A DNA stretch of 33,141 nucleotides from positions 1 through 33,141 of the forward strand of contig MFJF01000012.1 in the NCBI GenBank assembly GCA_001779115.1. Direction: 5' to 3'. A program made the translations under genes and the position numbers. Below are positions 7,665-33,141 of this stretch, piece after piece. This stretch comes from Candidatus Gottesmanbacteria bacterium RIFCSPHIGHO2_01_FULL_40_15 (GTDB lineage: Bacteria > Patescibacteriota > Microgenomatia > 2-02-FULL-39-11). The notes beneath the pieces were generated by a model, which made no database searches, was not told the DNA's origin, and saw nothing but the letters and a program-made list of their open reading frames with translations. Each line of letters begins with the position of its first letter. Position 1 is the stretch's first letter.

Positions 7665-8060
7665 ATGGCCGGATTTTTTCACTTAATCAGACCAGTATTT
7701 GCCCAGGGACTCGGCTGCGGAGGAGGATTGGGTCCAATTGCTGCGGCATTGTGCAACATAAATCCAGGTGATACTTCAAAAGTAGGTACCAGATTAAATA
7801 TCGCCATAAGCGGTATCATCGGTTTTTTAACCATTATCGCCGCTTTATGGTTTGTAATTCAGTTTATTATTGCAGGATTTAACTGGATAAATGCCGGCGG
7901 AGATAAAAGCGCAGCACAAGCAGCACAACAGAAAATTACCAATGCAATAGTCGGACTTTTGATTGTAGTTTTGGCCTGGGTGATTGCCGGACTATTGGGA
8001 GTCCTTCTGGGCATTGATATACTAAATCCCGGAGCAATGTTACAAAAATTAATTATATAA
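7665..8060 (+). CDS. T4SS pilin-like two-helix membrane protein 3
   Basis: A 131-residue protein with a short hydrophobic lead MAGFFHLIRPVFAQ that looks like a minimal signal peptide ending at FAQ, then an extracytoplasmic segment with two cysteines (GLGCGGGLG and AALCNINPG) that could form a disulfide. Helix 1 lies at about 45-68, the turn is FNWINAGGDKSAAQAAQQKI, and helix 2 (TNAIVGLLIVVLAWVIAGLLGVLLG) is followed by a short tail. This is the best match in the cluster to the T4SS pilin pattern (WINAGGDK...A...KI..A..G). The gene begins 14 bases after pilin 2. It is a good candidate for the main pilus subunit, by inference only. Confidence 0.77.
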   Translation: MAGFFHLIRPVFAQGLGCGGGLGPIAAALCNINPGDTSKVGTRLNIAISGIIGFLTIIAALWFVIQFIIAGFNWINAGGDKSAAQAAQQKITNAIVGLLIVVLAWVIAGLLGVLLGIDILNPGAMLQKLII

Positions 8061-8067
8061 AAAACAT

Positions 8068-8424
8068 ATGTTTTTACTTCAGGCGCCAATTACTAATCCG
8101 GTTATAAAGGGACTTACCGGCAAATTACCTAAGGACGCACCGGGAATTCTGGCAACATTTATTGCCGGGCTTATCGGACTTTTGCTGGTTATCGGAACTC
8201 TCTGGGCTTTTTTCCAGTTTATAATCGGAGCCTTTAACTGGATTTCATCATCAGGAGACAAGGGAAAACTGGAATCAGCCCAACAAAGAATTCTTCAGGC
8301 GGTTATCGGACTGATTGTCGTATTTGCCGCTTGGGCGATATTTATTGTACTTTTGAGGTTTCTTGGGGTGACCGGCGCCGGCGCCGGCGGGCAGATCCAG
8401 CTGAAACTGCCGACTCTTTTTTAA
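8068..8424 (+). CDS. T4SS pilin-like two-helix membrane protein 4
   Basis: A 118-residue member of the same family. The N-terminus is MFLLQAPITNPVIKGLTG; helix 1 is at about 28-54 (FIAGLIGLLLVIGTLWAFFQFI); the turn is FNWISSSGDKGKLESAQQRI; helix 2 (LQAVIGLIVVFAAWAIFIVLLRFLG) is followed by the tail GVTGAGAGGQIQLKLPTLF. It begins seven bases after pilin 3 and resembles it more than pilins 1 and 2, so the pair may be a local duplication. The last 83 bases overlap the convergent nucleotidyltransferase gene on the other strand, within a GC-rich (CCGGCG) tract. Confidence 0.72.
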   Translation: MFLLQAPITNPVIKGLTGKLPKDAPGILATFIAGLIGLLLVIGTLWAFFQFIIGAFNWISSSGDKGKLESAQQRILQAVIGLIVVFAAWAIFIVLLRFLGVTGAGAGGQIQLKLPTLF

Positions 8425-25580: not shown

Positions 25581-28500
25581 TCAGGAAGTGGCAGAAGCAA
25601 CTGCGGCGGACTCCTCCTGAACCGGCTTAGCCTGACCGGTTGGCGCGGCTGGCGTTGCTCCGGTTTCAACAGGTTGGTTACCGGCAGCAAAATAAGATTC
25701 AAGCGGATTTTGTACCGGAGGAGACGGTTGAGGATTTTGTACCGGAGGAGACGGCTGTTGAGTTATAACCGGAGTTTGAATGGAAGAAAAGGGAGGAGGC
25801 TCTGAAACTTGAGGCGGAGACGGCGGCTGGTCCGGTTGAGATGGTTGGGATTTTGGGACAGATTGATCAGGTGATGCTGGAGGGGGAGACGAAGGTGTTT
25901 GAGGCAGACCCGGGTTACCCTGATCCTGTCCGGAAGTCTTATTGCCTTGATCAGTATTTCCCGATACCGGAGGAGCCGCTGCCCCTGTTGGCGGCGGTTG
26001 AAAGAGAGAAACTGCGGGACTTTGACACTTGGGACAGGCGGAAACAGGAGATCCAAAGGGCACTTCGAATTCATGACCGCAATTTTTGCACTGATAGGTA
26101 TCAACTGACTTATCTTCCGAAGACGGGGGAGGGGGCGGAGTTTTAAGATGCATTTTTTTGATGTTAAACAACAACTTCTGACCGTCATAATCGATATCAA
26201 TAGTATCTCCGGCAGCCAGTTCACTTTTTATAAGATAAGTAGAGATCGGATTTTCTATTTCCCTTTGAATAGTACGCCTTAACGGCCTGGCGCCAAAAAC
26301 CGGATCAAAACCGATTTCAGTAAGATACGCTTTCGCGACTGGCGTTACATTAATGGCGATATTCTGTTCATATAATTGTTTTTTCAAAATATTCATTTGA
26401 AGGTCGACTATTTCCAGCATGTGCTCTTTTGTCAGCGGTCTGAATATAACTACTTCATCATAACGATTCAGGAGCTCAGGCCGGAAAAATTTACGAAGTT
26501 CTTCCATCAGGCGATTTGCCAAAACTTCAAATTTATCGTCATTTATATTTTCTTTTATTTCAATTTCAGTTTCACTTTTAACAGGAATAAAGGCTAACTC
26601 CTCTCCGATTTTTTCATCAGAATCAGATTCATCAGTTTCTGTTTCATGCTCCGGAACTTGGTTATTATTGATTAACCTGCCTTTTAAATAACCCTGTTTT
26701 ACTTTGACAGAACCCCCCGGTTTTTCCTTTTTAACCGATAAACTTTTAGGGAGTTCGACTTCAATTACAGAAAATAGTTTCTCTACCGGTCCTGCTTTCC
26801 AGTTAACTGAAGAGGAATTAATCCGCATGTAGAAGCGTCCCTCAAAAATAATTATTTCTTCACCGGTCGGTTTGAAAAGATGAATATCCCAGAGGTCGAC
26901 AGGAAATTGAAGTGGCTCCGTCTTGTCCATTTTTTTATCATCTCTTTTTTGGATAAGATGGGCAGTGTCATCTTTTTTGCCCGGTTGGGGTTTATTCTGC
27001 TGCGCCACTATTGAATCAGGCTCATCAGACAATAGAACGCCATTGGCAAAATACTCCATGAGCGAGCCGGTTGTCCAATCTTTAATCTGAAGATTATCCC
27101 TTTTCCAGAATCTATTACCTAAAGTAATGATTTCCTGATTGGACAAAGAAAACGCATGAGTTGAAATTTGCGCTGTGGGCAGCTGTTGATCGGGCTTATC
27201 GGGCATGGCATTGATGACAATATGGCCTTTTACCTGGTCCAGAATTGATGACAGGCGCCATTCTTTACCGGTTGTTGAAGTTCTAAACCAAACCTTGTCA
27301 GCTGAAGTTATAGTTTCCGAACCATCAGGAGCAATAGTGTGGGTGTCTAAACCATCCTCAGGAAAGAGTTTTTCGCCCTCTTTTAAGCTCATACCGGTGA
27401 CGATTGATCCGGCAAAATAGTCTTTCAGGAATCCTTTTTTCCATTTGATATCCTGCGGATCCTTATGAAAATAAAGATCGTCAAGAGTCAGCATTTCACG
27501 ACCGGTAGGAGACACAACAAAAGTTTTGAAAATTCTTGCCTTTTCAATAAGCGGTTTTATTTCCCTAACCTCTTTTATGCCCCAGCTGAGAATTTCTTCC
27601 TGAATGATGGAACTGCCCAAATTAGATGTACAAATAACAATCGAGTTTTTAAAAGAGATTGTCCTGCCTTTGTTATCGGTTAAACGGCCGTCATCCAATA
27701 ATTGAATTAAAATATTGAAAACATCCGGGTGAGCTTTTTCAATTTCATCCAGAAGAACAACCGAGTAGGGTCTCCTCCTGACAGCTTCCGTTAACTGGCC
27801 GCCTTCTTCATAACCAACATAACCGGGCGGGGCACCAATCAGTTTGGCAACTTCATGCTTCTCCATATACTCGGACATATCAAGACGGACCATCATTTCT
27901 TCACTGCCGAACAGTATTTCGGCAATGGATTTGGCCAGCTCGGTTTTACCGACACCGGTCGGGCCCATAAATATAAATGAACCAATCGGGCGTTTATTGG
28001 ATTTAAGACCAGCCCGGCCCCGGCGGACAGCTTCGGCAACGGCTGAAACAGCTTCCTCCTGATCAATTAGTCTTTTATGAATTATTTTTTCCAGATCCAT
28101 AAGTTTGACAGCTTCACTTTCCGTCAGACGGCTGACCGGGATATTAGTCCAGCGGGAGACGATTCCGGCTATGGTTTCCGGATTAACCTCGTTGGTGGTA
28201 GTTGATTTCTTGAGCTGATAGTCATTTTGCAGCTTTTCCAGATTCTTCTGTTCATCTTCTATTTCCTTTTTAATCGATTCAGACCGGACCGCATCCCCCA
28301 TCTTATCGGCTTCTTCAAATTCGTGATTTAATTTTTTCAGCTTATTTTCGGCACTTTTAATTTCCTCCGGAAGAGAAATAGCAGGAAGACGAACCGCAGC
28401 TGATGCTTCATCAATCAGATCGACGGCTTTATCAGGAAGATAGCGATCGGAAATATATCTTTGGGACAGCCTGACGGCAGCCTCAATTGCATCTTCGGGA

Positions 28501-29891
28501 ATCTTGACACGGTGAAAAGCTTCATACTTGTCCCTCAGAGCGGTGACCATTTCTATGGCCGTTTCGGCAGAAGGTTCCGCAACTGTAACCGGCTGGAATC
28601 GCCTTTCGAGCGCCGGATCTTTTTCGATATATTTGCGGTATTCGGTAACGGTAGTGGTACCGATAACCTGCAGCTCTCCACGGGCCAGGGAAGGCTTCAA
28701 TATATTTGAGGCGTCCATGGTGCCTTCACTGCCGCTTCCGGCTCCGACCATATTATGAAGTTCATCGATAAATAAAATAATAGCTCCAGCAGCGGATTTT
28801 ACTTCTTTTATAAGATTTTTAAGCCTTTCTTCAAATTCACCACGATGACGGGCACCGGCAATTAAAGACATCAGATCCAAAAGAAGCACTCTTTTATGGA
28901 GAAGGGTTTCGGGAACATCACCCCTGGCTATTCTTTGAGCCAAGCCTTCGACAATAGCTGTTTTCCCGACTCCGGCATCACCTATTAAAGCAGGATTATT
29001 TTTGGTCCGGCGGGAGAGGATATGAATAATTCTTTCTATTTCCCCACTTCTACCTACAACCGGGTCAAGTTCACCGCGGGCAGCTTTAGCAGTCAAATCC
29101 TCAGTAAACTGTTCGAGAGCGGTGGTTTTCCGGTCGTCTTTTTTATGTTCCAGATCTTTTTTACCGGTTATTTTCTGATTAAGTACCGGGGTAGTCAGGC
29201 GGAATTTAGTTAAAACTTGAGCGGCAACTCCTTCACCCTCCTGGGATAAGGCTAACAAGATATGCTCAGGAGAAATAAATTCATATCCCAATGATCGGGC
29301 GGCAGACAGAGATAATTCCAAAACTCTTTTTACCCGGGGAGAAAATTGGGGAAGTCCCGCGTATTTTCCTTTTTTAAAATTTTTTTCCAGCATTGCCTGA
29401 AGTTCAGATGGAACAACTTTACAGTCAGAGATCAACTGGTAAATACTAGAATCATGGAGAAGACCCCATAAGATATGTTCAGTATCAATATATTGTCCTT
29501 TTAACTCTTTTACTTTATCGACTGATTTCATGAGAACGGCATTGGCTCTTTGTGTCAGACGAGAAAGCACATCCATACCAACTCTTTTTCCCATATCAAT
29601 GGATGACGGCTCGGAGGATGTTTTGGGAGCGGGTTGGGATCCGTCAGAAGTACTTTGGGAGACAGTAGTTTTTTGGGCTGTAGTCGTCTGGTTTGGAGCC
29701 TGCGGATTGCCGATACCGGAATAAGCCTGACCCTGCGGAGGATTACCGATACCTGAGTAAGATCCTGATTGAGATGGTTGGGACGATTCCTCCTGGCTTA
29801 CCTCCACTGAAGTTGACTGAACCTGGCTACTGTCCTGACCGGGATCTCCTGATGAATCCTTTTTGAAGTATTTGGTAAAGCTGAAGGCCAT
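25581..29891 (-). CDS. ClpC-like AAA+ unfoldase with large insertion in the second AAA+ module
   Basis: A 1436-residue Hsp100 ATPase that should unfold and thread proteins. Order: Gly/Ser/Gln-rich extension (1-100, with YSGIGNP twice); Clp N domain (about 104-240); AAA1 with Walker A GDAGVGKT at 304-311 and Walker [11 protein letters not shown]; a short ClpC-size middle coiled coil (about 508-560); AAA2 with GPTGVGKT at 643-650, [11 protein letters not shown] at 711-721 and sensor 1 TSNLGS at 755-760; an insertion of about 360 residues; then [11 protein letters not shown] (Arg finger 1143), sensor 2 GARPLRR at 1200-1206, a zinc ribbon (Cys1268, 1271, 1286, 1289) and a Pro-rich tail. ClpC is normally about 810-850 residues. 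The insertion replaces the stretch that holds the ClpP-binding loop in ClpC/ClpA. Partner and substrates are unknown. Promoter TTGACA/TTTACT lies directly upstream. Confidence 0.9.
26517..27596 (-). other. Insertion in the Clp AAA2 module with four related modules
   Basis: Residues about 766-1125 of the Clp protein. Four stretches share a pattern: a hydrophobic start, xPxGxE or similar, ITL/LTL, an aromatic F/W-Y/F/W pair, then W-(K/T/R)-x-G-x-L...YF...: residues 791-836 ([33 protein letters not shown]), 851-897 ([35 protein letters not shown]), 911-957 ([35 protein letters not shown]) and 1003-1049 ([34 protein letters not shown]). The first three start 60 residues apart. An acidic linker ([16 protein letters not shown]) closes the insert. 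The frame is open throughout. The fold is not recognised; the hydrophobic pattern suggests beta strands followed by a helix. Confidence 0.75.
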
Positions 29892-30041: not shown

Positions 30042-31475
30042 ATGGAACAGCACCCGGTTCCCAGAAATATTTCCAGTTTTCAATTCCATCTGGTAGGAGA
30101 CATGACAATGCGCCAGTTCCTTTACCTGGCCGGAGGGGCATTCATTGCTTTTTTAATCTTTAAATTCGCACCGCTACCGGCACTTTTAAAATGGCCAATG
30201 GCACTCTCAACCGGATTCGGCGGTTTTGCCTTTGCTTTTTTACCAATCCAGGAAAGGCCGCTCGATAAATGGCTATTGGCATTTCTTAGAAGCATCAATG
30301 CTCCGACACAATATATTTGGAGAAAAGAAGAAACAATGCCTGATATTTTGGCCAGAAGCTATACCTCTCCCATTAAACGACTACCGCAAAATCATCAGGA
30401 GGCTCATCAAGATGCGCAAAGAAAATTAGATATGTATATGACGAGCGTTCCCAAACAACCCCACCAAACTTTAAATATTGCCGAGAAACGCTATATTGAC
30501 CAGACTTTACAACTGTTCAATACAACCGGAGTGGCAACCACAGGACAGGTTCAACCCGGATTTTACCAGCCGCAGGTCAGTCCGCAAATAGCCGATCTGA
30601 CTACCACACAAGAACCGGTTATCCGTCCGGAAAAACACATCAAAAACATTACGGATCCGACAACACCAAAAATTAACATCCAAGATACACCTCCGGTTAA
30701 AGAAAAAGCAACTGAAGAAAAAGACAGCAAAACCATTAAAACGGACGACATAAAACCGGCCGGAAAAATTCAGACGGAAAAAACCAGTACCGGGGAGATA
30801 ATAAGAGAACCGAATAAAATACCTGATTCAATTGGAAAAGTGCCAGCGGAAAAGAGAGCAGATAAAAAGGATGTTGAGTCAGCAACCCCGGTCCTGCAAA
30901 CTGTGATTCAATCAGAAGTTAAAAAAACTGTTACTGATAGCCCCCGGGAAGACTCAAAACTTTCCGGAATCCTTGCGGAAAAAGAAAAATTGGAGCTGGA
31001 ATTAAAACAATTAAAAGACGAACTGGAAAAAAGCAGAAAACCCGATATCGTCAAACCGCAACTGGCTCCTGAAAAGAAAGTACCAACGATTAAAACAGTA
31101 ACGCTAAAAACAGCAGTTGATGAAATCGGCATTCCCAAGCTACCACAAGTACCCAATATTATTATGGGAGTTATTAAAGATACACAGAGGAAAATTCTTC
31201 CAAACATTATTTTGACAATAAAAGACACAAAAGGAGTGCCTCACCGGGCTTTAAAAACAAACAGGCTGGGTCAATTTTCAACGGCTACGCCACTTCAAAA
31301 CGGCACTTATTACATTGAAGCGGAAGATCCCCTAAAAAGATATGTTTTTGATATAGGCGAAATTAATTTAACCGGGAAAGTTTTTTTACCGATTGAAATG
31401 ACAGCCAAAGGGGAAAAGGAACTGATGAGGGAGAAACTGACAAAAGAGATTTTCGGAAACCCACGGGCAGCATAA
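30042..31475 (+). CDS. PrgI-family T4SS protein with C-terminal carboxypeptidase-regulatory-like domain
   Basis: A 477-residue protein. Residues 1-95 match PrgI: HPVPRNISSFQFHLVGDMTM, two membrane helices (about 25-42 and 48-66) and the RPLDKWLLAFLRSINAPTQY end, where PrgI, like VirB3, is an inner-membrane partner of the VirB4 ATPase in Gram-positive conjugation systems. Residues about 100-300 are low complexity, rich in Lys, Thr, Pro and Glu; about 315-345 is a coiled coil (AEKEKLELELKQLKDELEKS); about 370-455 is a beta-sandwich like the carboxypeptidase regulatory domain (IMGVIKDTQRKILPNIILTI, LKTNRLGQFSTATPLQNGTY). Known PrgI proteins are near 120 residues, so the extension is large. It begins the T4SS operon; the next gene is 42 bases downstream. 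Confidence 0.8.
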   Translation: MEQHPVPRNISSFQFHLVGDMTMRQFLYLAGGAFIAFLIFKFAPLPALLKWPMALSTGFGGFAFAFLPIQERPLDKWLLAFLRSINAPTQYIWRKEETMPDILARSYTSPIKRLPQNHQEAHQDAQRKLDMYMTSVPKQPHQTLNIAEKRYIDQTLQLFNTTGVATTGQVQPGFYQPQVSPQIADLTTTQEPVIRPEKHIKNITDPTTPKINIQDTPPVKEKATEEKDSKTIKTDDIKPAGKIQTEKTSTGEIIREPNKIPDSIGKVPAEKRADKKDVESATPVLQTVIQSEVKKTVTDSPREDSKLSGILAEKEKLELELKQLKDELEKSRKPDIVKPQLAPEKKVPTIKTVTLKTAVDEIGIPKLPQVPNIIMGVIKDTQRKILPNIILTIKDTKGVPHRALKTNRLGQFSTATPLQNGTYYIEAEDPLKRYVFDIGEINLTGKVFLPIEMTAKGEKELMREKLTKEIFGNPRAA

Positions 31476-32195: not shown

Positions 32196-33141
32196 ATGCT
32201 GTCGTTATTTAATAAGAAAAAAAAACAGGCTGAGGAGATTCAAGCTGCACCGGCCTTAAATATGACGGGTACTGTAATGCCCGGAGCTTACCAGACAGGC
32301 GCCAAAAACAAGGCAATTGCGGGACAGACAACAACTTCAGGAATAACGGCAAATTTTCCATCAACAGCCAATCCGGCGGGAACCGGACAGCCCCAACCAG
32401 GACAACCAACACAACAAACAACGGCACATGCAGGAGGAAAGGGGACTTTGCCCATTAAGCCGGGACAACAGCAGGGACAGACTGTTTTGTCGAAACAGGC
32501 AATGGCCGCCCAAAGAACAAAGAGCTTCCAGGCAAAGCAACAGTTTACTAAAGGACTTTCGAACATCAGAGATATCATCGCACCTAGCCTGGTTGAAGTT
32601 GATTTTGACAATATCAGGATAAACAATAATTTTTACCGGACTTTATTTGTGGCCGGTTATCCGCGGTATGTGTCGGCCAACTGGCTTCACCCGCTTCTGT
32701 CTTTTGACCAATCCTTATTTATATCAATGTATATATATCCGACGGAATCAAGAATAATTCTTGAAGATCTCAAGAGAAAAATTGCCGAAATGGAGGCAAC
32801 CATTCAGGTTGACATGAAAAGAGGTAAAGTGATTGACCCTTCAGTCCAGGTATCCCTGGATGATGCTCTGGCTCTTCAAGCACAACTGGCCAAGGGTGCT
32901 GAAAGATTTTTCCAGTTTGCGCTTTATATCTGCATTCCGGCGGATACAATTGAAGAATTAAACAGGCAAAGCAAAGAAGTTGAATCGACACTGGGATCTT
33001 TATTGGTAGTCACCAAACACGCAACACTGTCCCAGGAAGACGGATTTAAGTCCACTCTGCCTCTTGGACTTGACAAACTGGATGTAACCAGAAATATGGA
33101 TACGACAAGCCTGGCGACAACTTTTCCTTTTACCACAGCAT
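32196..33141 (+). CDS. VirB4-like T4SS ATPase, N-terminal part (cut by window end)
   Basis: 315 codons are present and the frame is open at the last base. Residues 1-105 are a basic start (MLSLFNKKKKQAEE) and then a Gly-, Gln-, Thr- and Pro-rich disordered stretch. From about 110 it resembles the N-terminal domain of VirB4/TraC ATPases: IRDIIAPSLVEVDFDNIRIN, FYRTLFVAGYPRYVSANWLH, SLFISMYIYPTESRIILEDL, then DDALALQAQLAKGAERFFQF and TLPLGLDKLDVTRNMDTTSL, which includes the LPLG...R.M.T motif that precedes the ATPase core. The Walker motifs would lie beyond the window. It should be the membrane-associated ATPase that drives pilus assembly or substrate transfer. The preceding gene ends three bases upstream. 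Confidence 0.88.
   Translation, partial: MLSLFNKKKKQAEEIQAAPALNMTGTVMPGAYQTGAKNKAIAGQTTTSGITANFPSTANPAGTGQPQPGQPTQQTTAHAGGKGTLPIKPGQQQGQTVLSKQAMAAQRTKSFQAKQQFTKGLSNIRDIIAPSLVEVDFDNIRINNNFYRTLFVAGYPRYVSANWLHPLLSFDQSLFISMYIYPTESRIILEDLKRKIAEMEATIQVDMKRGKVIDPSVQVSLDDALALQAQLAKGAERFFQFALYICIPADTIEELNRQSKEVESTLGSLLVVTKHATLSQEDGFKSTLPLGLDKLDVTRNMDTTSLATTFPFTTA

Follow-up and report, generated by a model that had tools for sequence, protein, structure and literature searches.

A ClpC-type Hsp100 unfoldase with a predicted hemopexin-type propeller at the ClpP-docking loop in Candidatus Gottesmanbacteria

The window analyzed here, i.e. the whole stretch of 33,141 nucleotides, is taken from contig MFJF01000012.1 of Candidatus Gottesmanbacteria bacterium RIFCSPHIGHO2_01_FULL_40_15 (GTDB lineage Patescibacteriota; Microgenomatia; 2-02-FULL-39-11, below referred to as the phylum, the class and the order). 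The genome is 1.33 Mb in size and 100% complete. Towards the end of the window a gene for a large ClpC-like protein converges with a gene for a small membrane protein and diverges from the first genes of a T4SS operon. The features of this region are summarized in Table 1.

Table 1. Genes and protein features around the clpC-like gene (positions are those of the window)
Feature	Residues	Position	Strand	Evidence and remarks
Membrane protein, convergent neighbor	236 aa	24848..25558	+	invariant HExxH and downstream invariant Asp
ClpC-like Hsp100 unfoldase with propeller insert	1436 aa	25581..29891	-	ORF; Pfam; PDB match
Zinc ribbon, C-terminal, C-x2-C...C-x2-C	1266-1294	26010..26096	-	Pfam Zn_ribbon_8, 4.3e-5, below curated cut-off
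Return helix, Arg-finger motif PELLNRYD and D2-small domain	1110-1246	26154..26564	-
Disordered return linker	1047-1109	26565..26753	-	low pLDDT
Propeller blade 4	1003-1046	26754..26885	-	AlphaFold2; repeat test
Blade 3-4 linker	956-1002	26886..27026	-	pLDDT 49-61; variable length, nearly absent in some homologs
Propeller blade 3	911-955	27027..27161	-	AlphaFold2; repeat test
Blade 2-3 connector	888-906	27174..27230	-	near-invariant V-x-N-A-x-x-D-x-P-x-x-Q-L-P-T, outside repeat pattern
Propeller blade 2	850-887	27231..27344	-	near-invariant R-x-S-T-T...K-x-W
Propeller blade 1	790-833	27393..27524	-	AlphaFold2 pLDDT about 89-96, four strands and short helix; repeat test
AAA2 large subdomain up to sensor 1	593-766	27594..28115	-	Walker A GPTGVGKT, Walker B VVLLDEIE, pore loop GAPPGYVGY
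AAA1	258-441	28569..29120	-	Walker A GDAGVGKT, Walker B ILFIDELH
Clp N-domain	109-236	29184..29567	-	Pfam Clp_N; alignment to ClpC N-domain structures
PrgI-family (VirB3-like) protein, divergent neighbor, first gene of T4SS operon		30042..31475	+	Pfam PF12666, 2.4e-8
Protein of T4SS operon	224 aa	31518..32192	+	conserved within the order; VirB4-N-like by eye only; no Pfam match
VirB4/TraG-type ATPase, gene start	700 aa in all	32196..33141	+	P-loop_TraG 1.2e-28 on full protein in L115

The Pfam domains detected in the 1436-aa protein were Clp_N, AAA, AAA_lid_9, AAA_2 and ClpB_D2-small, and its top match among PDB sequences was ClpC of B. subtilis (2.9e-240). With a Clp N-domain, two AAA+ modules and a D2-small domain, the protein has the composition of class I Hsp100/Clp unfoldases; the M-domain of ClpC length, the nearly gapless alignment with B. 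subtilis ClpC over residues 179-764 and the best PDB matches, which are to ClpC, assign it to the ClpC type, while the curated NCBIfam model for ClpB yielded 953.8 bits, below its cut-off of 1232.1. All Walker A, Walker B, Arg-finger and sensor-2 motifs are intact, and so is the pore loop of D2, GYVGY. The zinc ribbon is located within a P/Q-rich tail and was found in about half of the homologs. In the D1 pore loop (window 28569-29120) His (ARHRG) stands in place of the Tyr of ClpC (KYRG); this substitution (K/R/S-H-RG) occurs in nearly all ClpC proteins of the clade, insert-less orthologs included, and may alter the grip on the substrate. Ahead of the Clp N-domain, the gene encodes a conserved N-terminal start (MxxxFxFxxxFKK-like, window 29820-29891), possibly an amphipathic anchor, which is followed by a P/Q/S-rich linker.

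The reading frame, residue numbers and coordinates given in an initial annotation of this DNA were correct, the sensor 1 motif TSNLGS beginning at residue 755 and the Arg-finger motif LLNRYDE at residue 1140. The alignment with B. subtilis ClpC (3j3s) fell into two blocks, residues 179-764 versus ClpC 76-666 and residues 1122-1238 versus ClpC 683-799, with about 357 residues between them as compared to 16 in ClpC, at the segment which holds VGF or LGF in ClpC; the previously reported insert of about 360 residues at the ClpP-docking loop is thereby confirmed. The distance from sensor 1 to the Arg-finger motif is 375 aa; about 80 loci of the ClpC/ClpB type in other phyla have 23-40 aa there, and most of them carry [LIVM]GF in this stretch. 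A ClpP-docking [LIV]GF tripeptide was sought in the 375-aa segment and, as already observed in the initial annotation, none was found. In the rings of other Clp proteins the same loop is directed towards ClpP (PMC10149685). A structure model of AAA2 plus insert (residues 587-1245, pTM 0.50) contained an ordinary NBD2, to which Foldseek assigned the NBD2 of ClpC and ClpB, with the insert placed between the post-sensor-1 helix and the pre-Arg-finger helix. A frameshift or assembly artifact was rejected, since the frame is conserved and open over about 1150-1660 aa in the majority of the genomes of six families.

The four related modules noticed earlier within the insert are true repeats: their summed pairwise score was 352, versus 127 +/- 10 for shuffled sequences, none of 2000 shuffles scored as high, and the same outcome was obtained in three distant homologs. 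Searches of the insert against Pfam, NCBIfam and the PDB sequences yielded no match, and a known Clp domain was rejected as the identity of the modules. In the AlphaFold2 model of the insert, built with an alignment of 28 homologs (mean pLDDT 80.6, blades mostly 93-98; pTM 0.70), each module consisted of four strands and a short helix. When this model was compared with the PDB using Foldseek, matches 1-29 were all hemopexin-type four-bladed beta-propellers (E values 9e-9 to 2e-5, TM up to 0.73 on target), followed by other propellers; they included MMP-13 (9.2e-9), hemopexin (4e-8), MMP9 (1.2e-7), MMP-1, seed albumins and vitronectin. At the level of the model, four four-stranded blades and best structural matches to hemopexin domains thus identify the insert as a single hemopexin-type four-bladed beta-propeller between flexible linkers. 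The earlier description as an array of four domains did not hold, since the modules are predicted to be blades of one propeller. The insert shares the four blades of four strands with the hemopexin-like domains of matrix metalloproteinases (MMPs), hemopexin, vitronectin and seed albumins, but it is set inside an AAA+ protein, is only 7-13% identical to these Foldseek matches and, with zero or one Cys per propeller, lacks the disulphide closing blades 1 and 4. Regarding the Pfam Hemopexin family (PF00045), one of the 28 homologs yielded a match (E = 0.049) below the curated cut-off and the 1436-aa protein itself was not listed; membership of the family is unsupported by sequence because this match is too weak.

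Across the 28 homologs, near-invariant positions outside the repeat pattern are concentrated in blade 2 and the connector following it, namely R870, S872, T873, K876, W878, K888, V892, N894, A895, D898, P900, Q903, L904, P905 and T906. As these residues are not repeated in the other blades, the block 870-906 suggests a specific ligand or partner rather than a mere spacer, and the blade 2-3 connector is a candidate functional face, judging from sequence conservation.

The survey of ClpC homologs from CPR genomes proposed in the initial annotation detected the insert in 13 of the 15 genomes of the order (nine of nine among those of good quality). Within the class, the propeller profile matched 37 of 280 genomes, 35 of which were counted as insert-bearing; left out were G072, with secreted proteins containing related modules, and G241, with a 352-aa protein. 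The 35 genomes span the families f1, f2, f6, f20, f37 and f42, and the insert is 35-64% identical across the class. When 380 genomes from the phylum were searched with the profile, full matches were confined to the class; a wide distribution in the CPR was rejected, the many matches beyond the class covering nearly exclusively the ordinary flank shared by these proteins (FFRPELLNR), save one weak stand-alone match (G541). No relative was found in the viral contigs searched, and a viral or phage origin was rejected accordingly. Close orthologs without the insert occur in G001, G005, G143 and G161; in these, the remainder of the protein is retained along with most neighboring genes, and the loops of 36-117 aa contain no modules. 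In a tree of the ClpC core, calculated without the insert residues, five changes suffice to explain the distribution of the insert, at least three of which are forced by well-supported branches, as compared to 18 for shuffled labels. A single early gain followed by repeated loss is the simplest reading, because insert-less sequences nest inside insert-bearing groups.

Since close orthologs lack the insert, the function which it serves is not indispensable. Such losses (five changes in all), together with widely varying linker lengths and the module-free loop of 117 aa in G005, would fit a tolerated ornament, i.e. a propeller that occupies a loop freed after ClpP docking had gone and adds little beyond spacing or stability. 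Under drift, however, neither an identity of 35-64% over six families nor the near-invariant, non-repeated block 870-906 would have been kept, and this explanation is considered unlikely.

A check of the genome for clpP, also proposed in the initial annotation, yielded no match to PF00574, whereas 12 of 14 control genomes were positive; likewise, no homologs of the proteasome or HslV were found. Two further Clp-like proteins are present, one of 713 aa with a loop of 25 aa and one of 738 aa with a degenerate first AAA module. The latter (L003 52-2268, contig C28) has a hydrophobic N-terminus and an intact second AAA module. Strong ClpP matches occurred in ten of the 280 genomes of the class (families f19 and f30), none of them insert-bearing; three insert-bearing genomes (G039, G126 and G170) yielded a remote ClpP-like match only (E about 1e-19 to 1e-21). 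Insert and ClpP were rejected as mutually exclusive traits, for the overlap is zero, yet this is expected by chance in about 26% of draws (P = 0.26). [LIV]GF is also missing from the insert-less orthologs and from further proteins of the ClpB/ClpC type in the class (loops of 20-117 aa), including those examined in genomes with ClpP; the loss of the ClpP loop is therefore wider than the insert. Given these relatives and the rarity of ClpP, the propeller apparently entered a loop already without ClpP docking. The earlier proposal that the unfoldase exchanged its ClpP contact for the new domain thus could not be upheld, replacement of a contact not being demonstrable.

In the favored reading, the protein would be a double-ring Hsp100 unfoldase of the ClpC type which operates without ClpP and, judging from its intact motifs, still threads substrates through the pore by its motor. 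If it assembles into a hexameric ring, the homologous position of the loop would place six tethered propellers around the pore exit, where they may form a binding platform for a receiving partner or for the emerging substrate, contacted via the conserved patch formed by blade 2 and the connector that follows it. Substrates would probably be handed to some other partner, unless the unfoldase acts on its own. The complete statement, a ClpP-independent unfoldase with a conserved partner- or product-binding platform on its exit face, is given an even chance, and its anatomical part is regarded as highly likely. Alternatively, the unfoldase may be a stand-alone disaggregase used like ClpB, with the propeller serving as an exosite for substrates or adaptors; it would bind a class of clients in the manner of the hemopexin domains of matrix metalloproteinases and dock no receiving machine. 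This agrees with the missing [LIV]GF loop and the missing ClpP, as in ClpB; moreover, hemopexin domains are commonly ligand-binding modules, and the related four-module propellers in secreted proteins of the class point to a generic binding fold. By homology, however, the insert lies at the D2 exit, whereas the usual site of substrate recruitment is the entry, even if a tethered propeller could reach around; the exosite is accordingly rated as the less probable role, though a serious contender.

Compared to ClpC of Bacillus and Mycobacterium, which act in ClpCP, the protein has the same domain order, a ClpC-length M-domain and two intact AAA+ modules; it differs by the large insert in place of the [LIV]GF loop, a genome without ClpP, the His for the D1 pore-loop Tyr, the N-terminal motif with its P/Q/S-rich linker and, in many homologs, the zinc ribbon. 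With ClpB/Hsp104 it shares the absence of a ClpP loop and a presumably ClpP-independent action, but it has a short, ClpC-like M-domain, carries the propeller and scores below the ClpB cut-off. The ClpI class of Actinomycetota comprises proteins with and without LGF motifs; in ClpIb the LGF region is merely shortened to about 5 aa, and the accessible part of that study describes no domain insert (PMC10149685). Within the accessible parts of the open-licence literature on Clp proteins with hemopexin or propeller inserts, on CPR ClpC inserts and on CPR ClpP, no description of the present insert was found, consistent with the earlier suggestion of an undescribed Hsp100 variant. A whole folded domain, as predicted here, can thus be accommodated in the ClpP-docking loop of an Hsp100, and a genome-reduced clade retains a ClpC which lacks ClpP and carries a putative binding platform, new and conserved, at this loop. 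This makes testable which role the exit of a Clp ring plays without ClpP, and whether CPR bacteria couple unfolding to something besides degradation.

Wherever the contig reaches, the clpC-like gene is arranged throughout the order as in the window, divergent from the genes for the PrgI-family protein, the 224-aa protein and VirB4 and convergent with the HExxH gene; in f6 and f37 the neighbors differ and include a T4SS pilin (PF18895) and, by sequence, recF and groEL. The same neighbors are retained beside insert-less orthologs, which weakens the earlier suggestion of a peptidase or membrane complex as partner. The 236-aa protein showed no match in Pfam and, in the PDB, a weak match (E = 0.28) to a zinc metalloprotease from Aquifex; by its motif, its family, present in 102 of the 280 genomes of the class, is a candidate for a new site-2-protease-like family. 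Adjacency of the genes in two families and the invariance of HExxH and the downstream Asp might point to a propeller that docks this protein in an FtsH-like two-part protease. Such docking is very improbable given that some of the 102 genomes have only remote ClpB/ClpC matches, that the gene stays beside insert-less ClpC (G001, G005, G143) and that in some genomes with the insert, G015, G033 and G039 among them, no member of the family was found.

Regarding the T4SS operon, the adjacency within the order and the pilin genes near the insert-bearing gene in other families are suggestive of a partner, but the operon was rejected as such because its genes persist without the insert; the T4SS link is a lead and not evidence for the function of the insert. 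CPR T4SS loci are often found near dnaA/dnaN (PMC12102498), and dnaN- and dnaA-like genes, identified by sequence, follow on the same contig; the adjacency is therefore perhaps due to origin-proximal gene order. A crown of propellers which docks the unfoldase onto a membrane machine, e.g. the adjoining T4SS, and feeds unfolded proteins into an export channel is conceivable by analogy, though quite unlikely. HSP101 of the Plasmodium PTEX translocon, a ClpP-free Hsp100 which threads substrate into a membrane pore (PMC7355975), is a functional analog only; it has no propeller and its receiving proteins are different. At window 7665-8424, about 17 kb away from the clpC-like gene, there are two T4SS-pilin genes in tandem (PF18895, 3e-7 and 5.5e-6).

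Modules related to the ClpC propeller also occur, four in each case, in two secreted-looking proteins (L200 3-2375 and 4614-6782) with dockerin-like C-termini, one of which contains DUF2961; they are a possible source of the ClpC insert. A phmmer search of the related propeller from a secreted protein against the PDB yielded no match. The 352-aa protein of G241 (L199 6668-7726) combines four modules with a degenerate AAA2 large subdomain that has lost Walker B, and is read as a remnant or a regulator.
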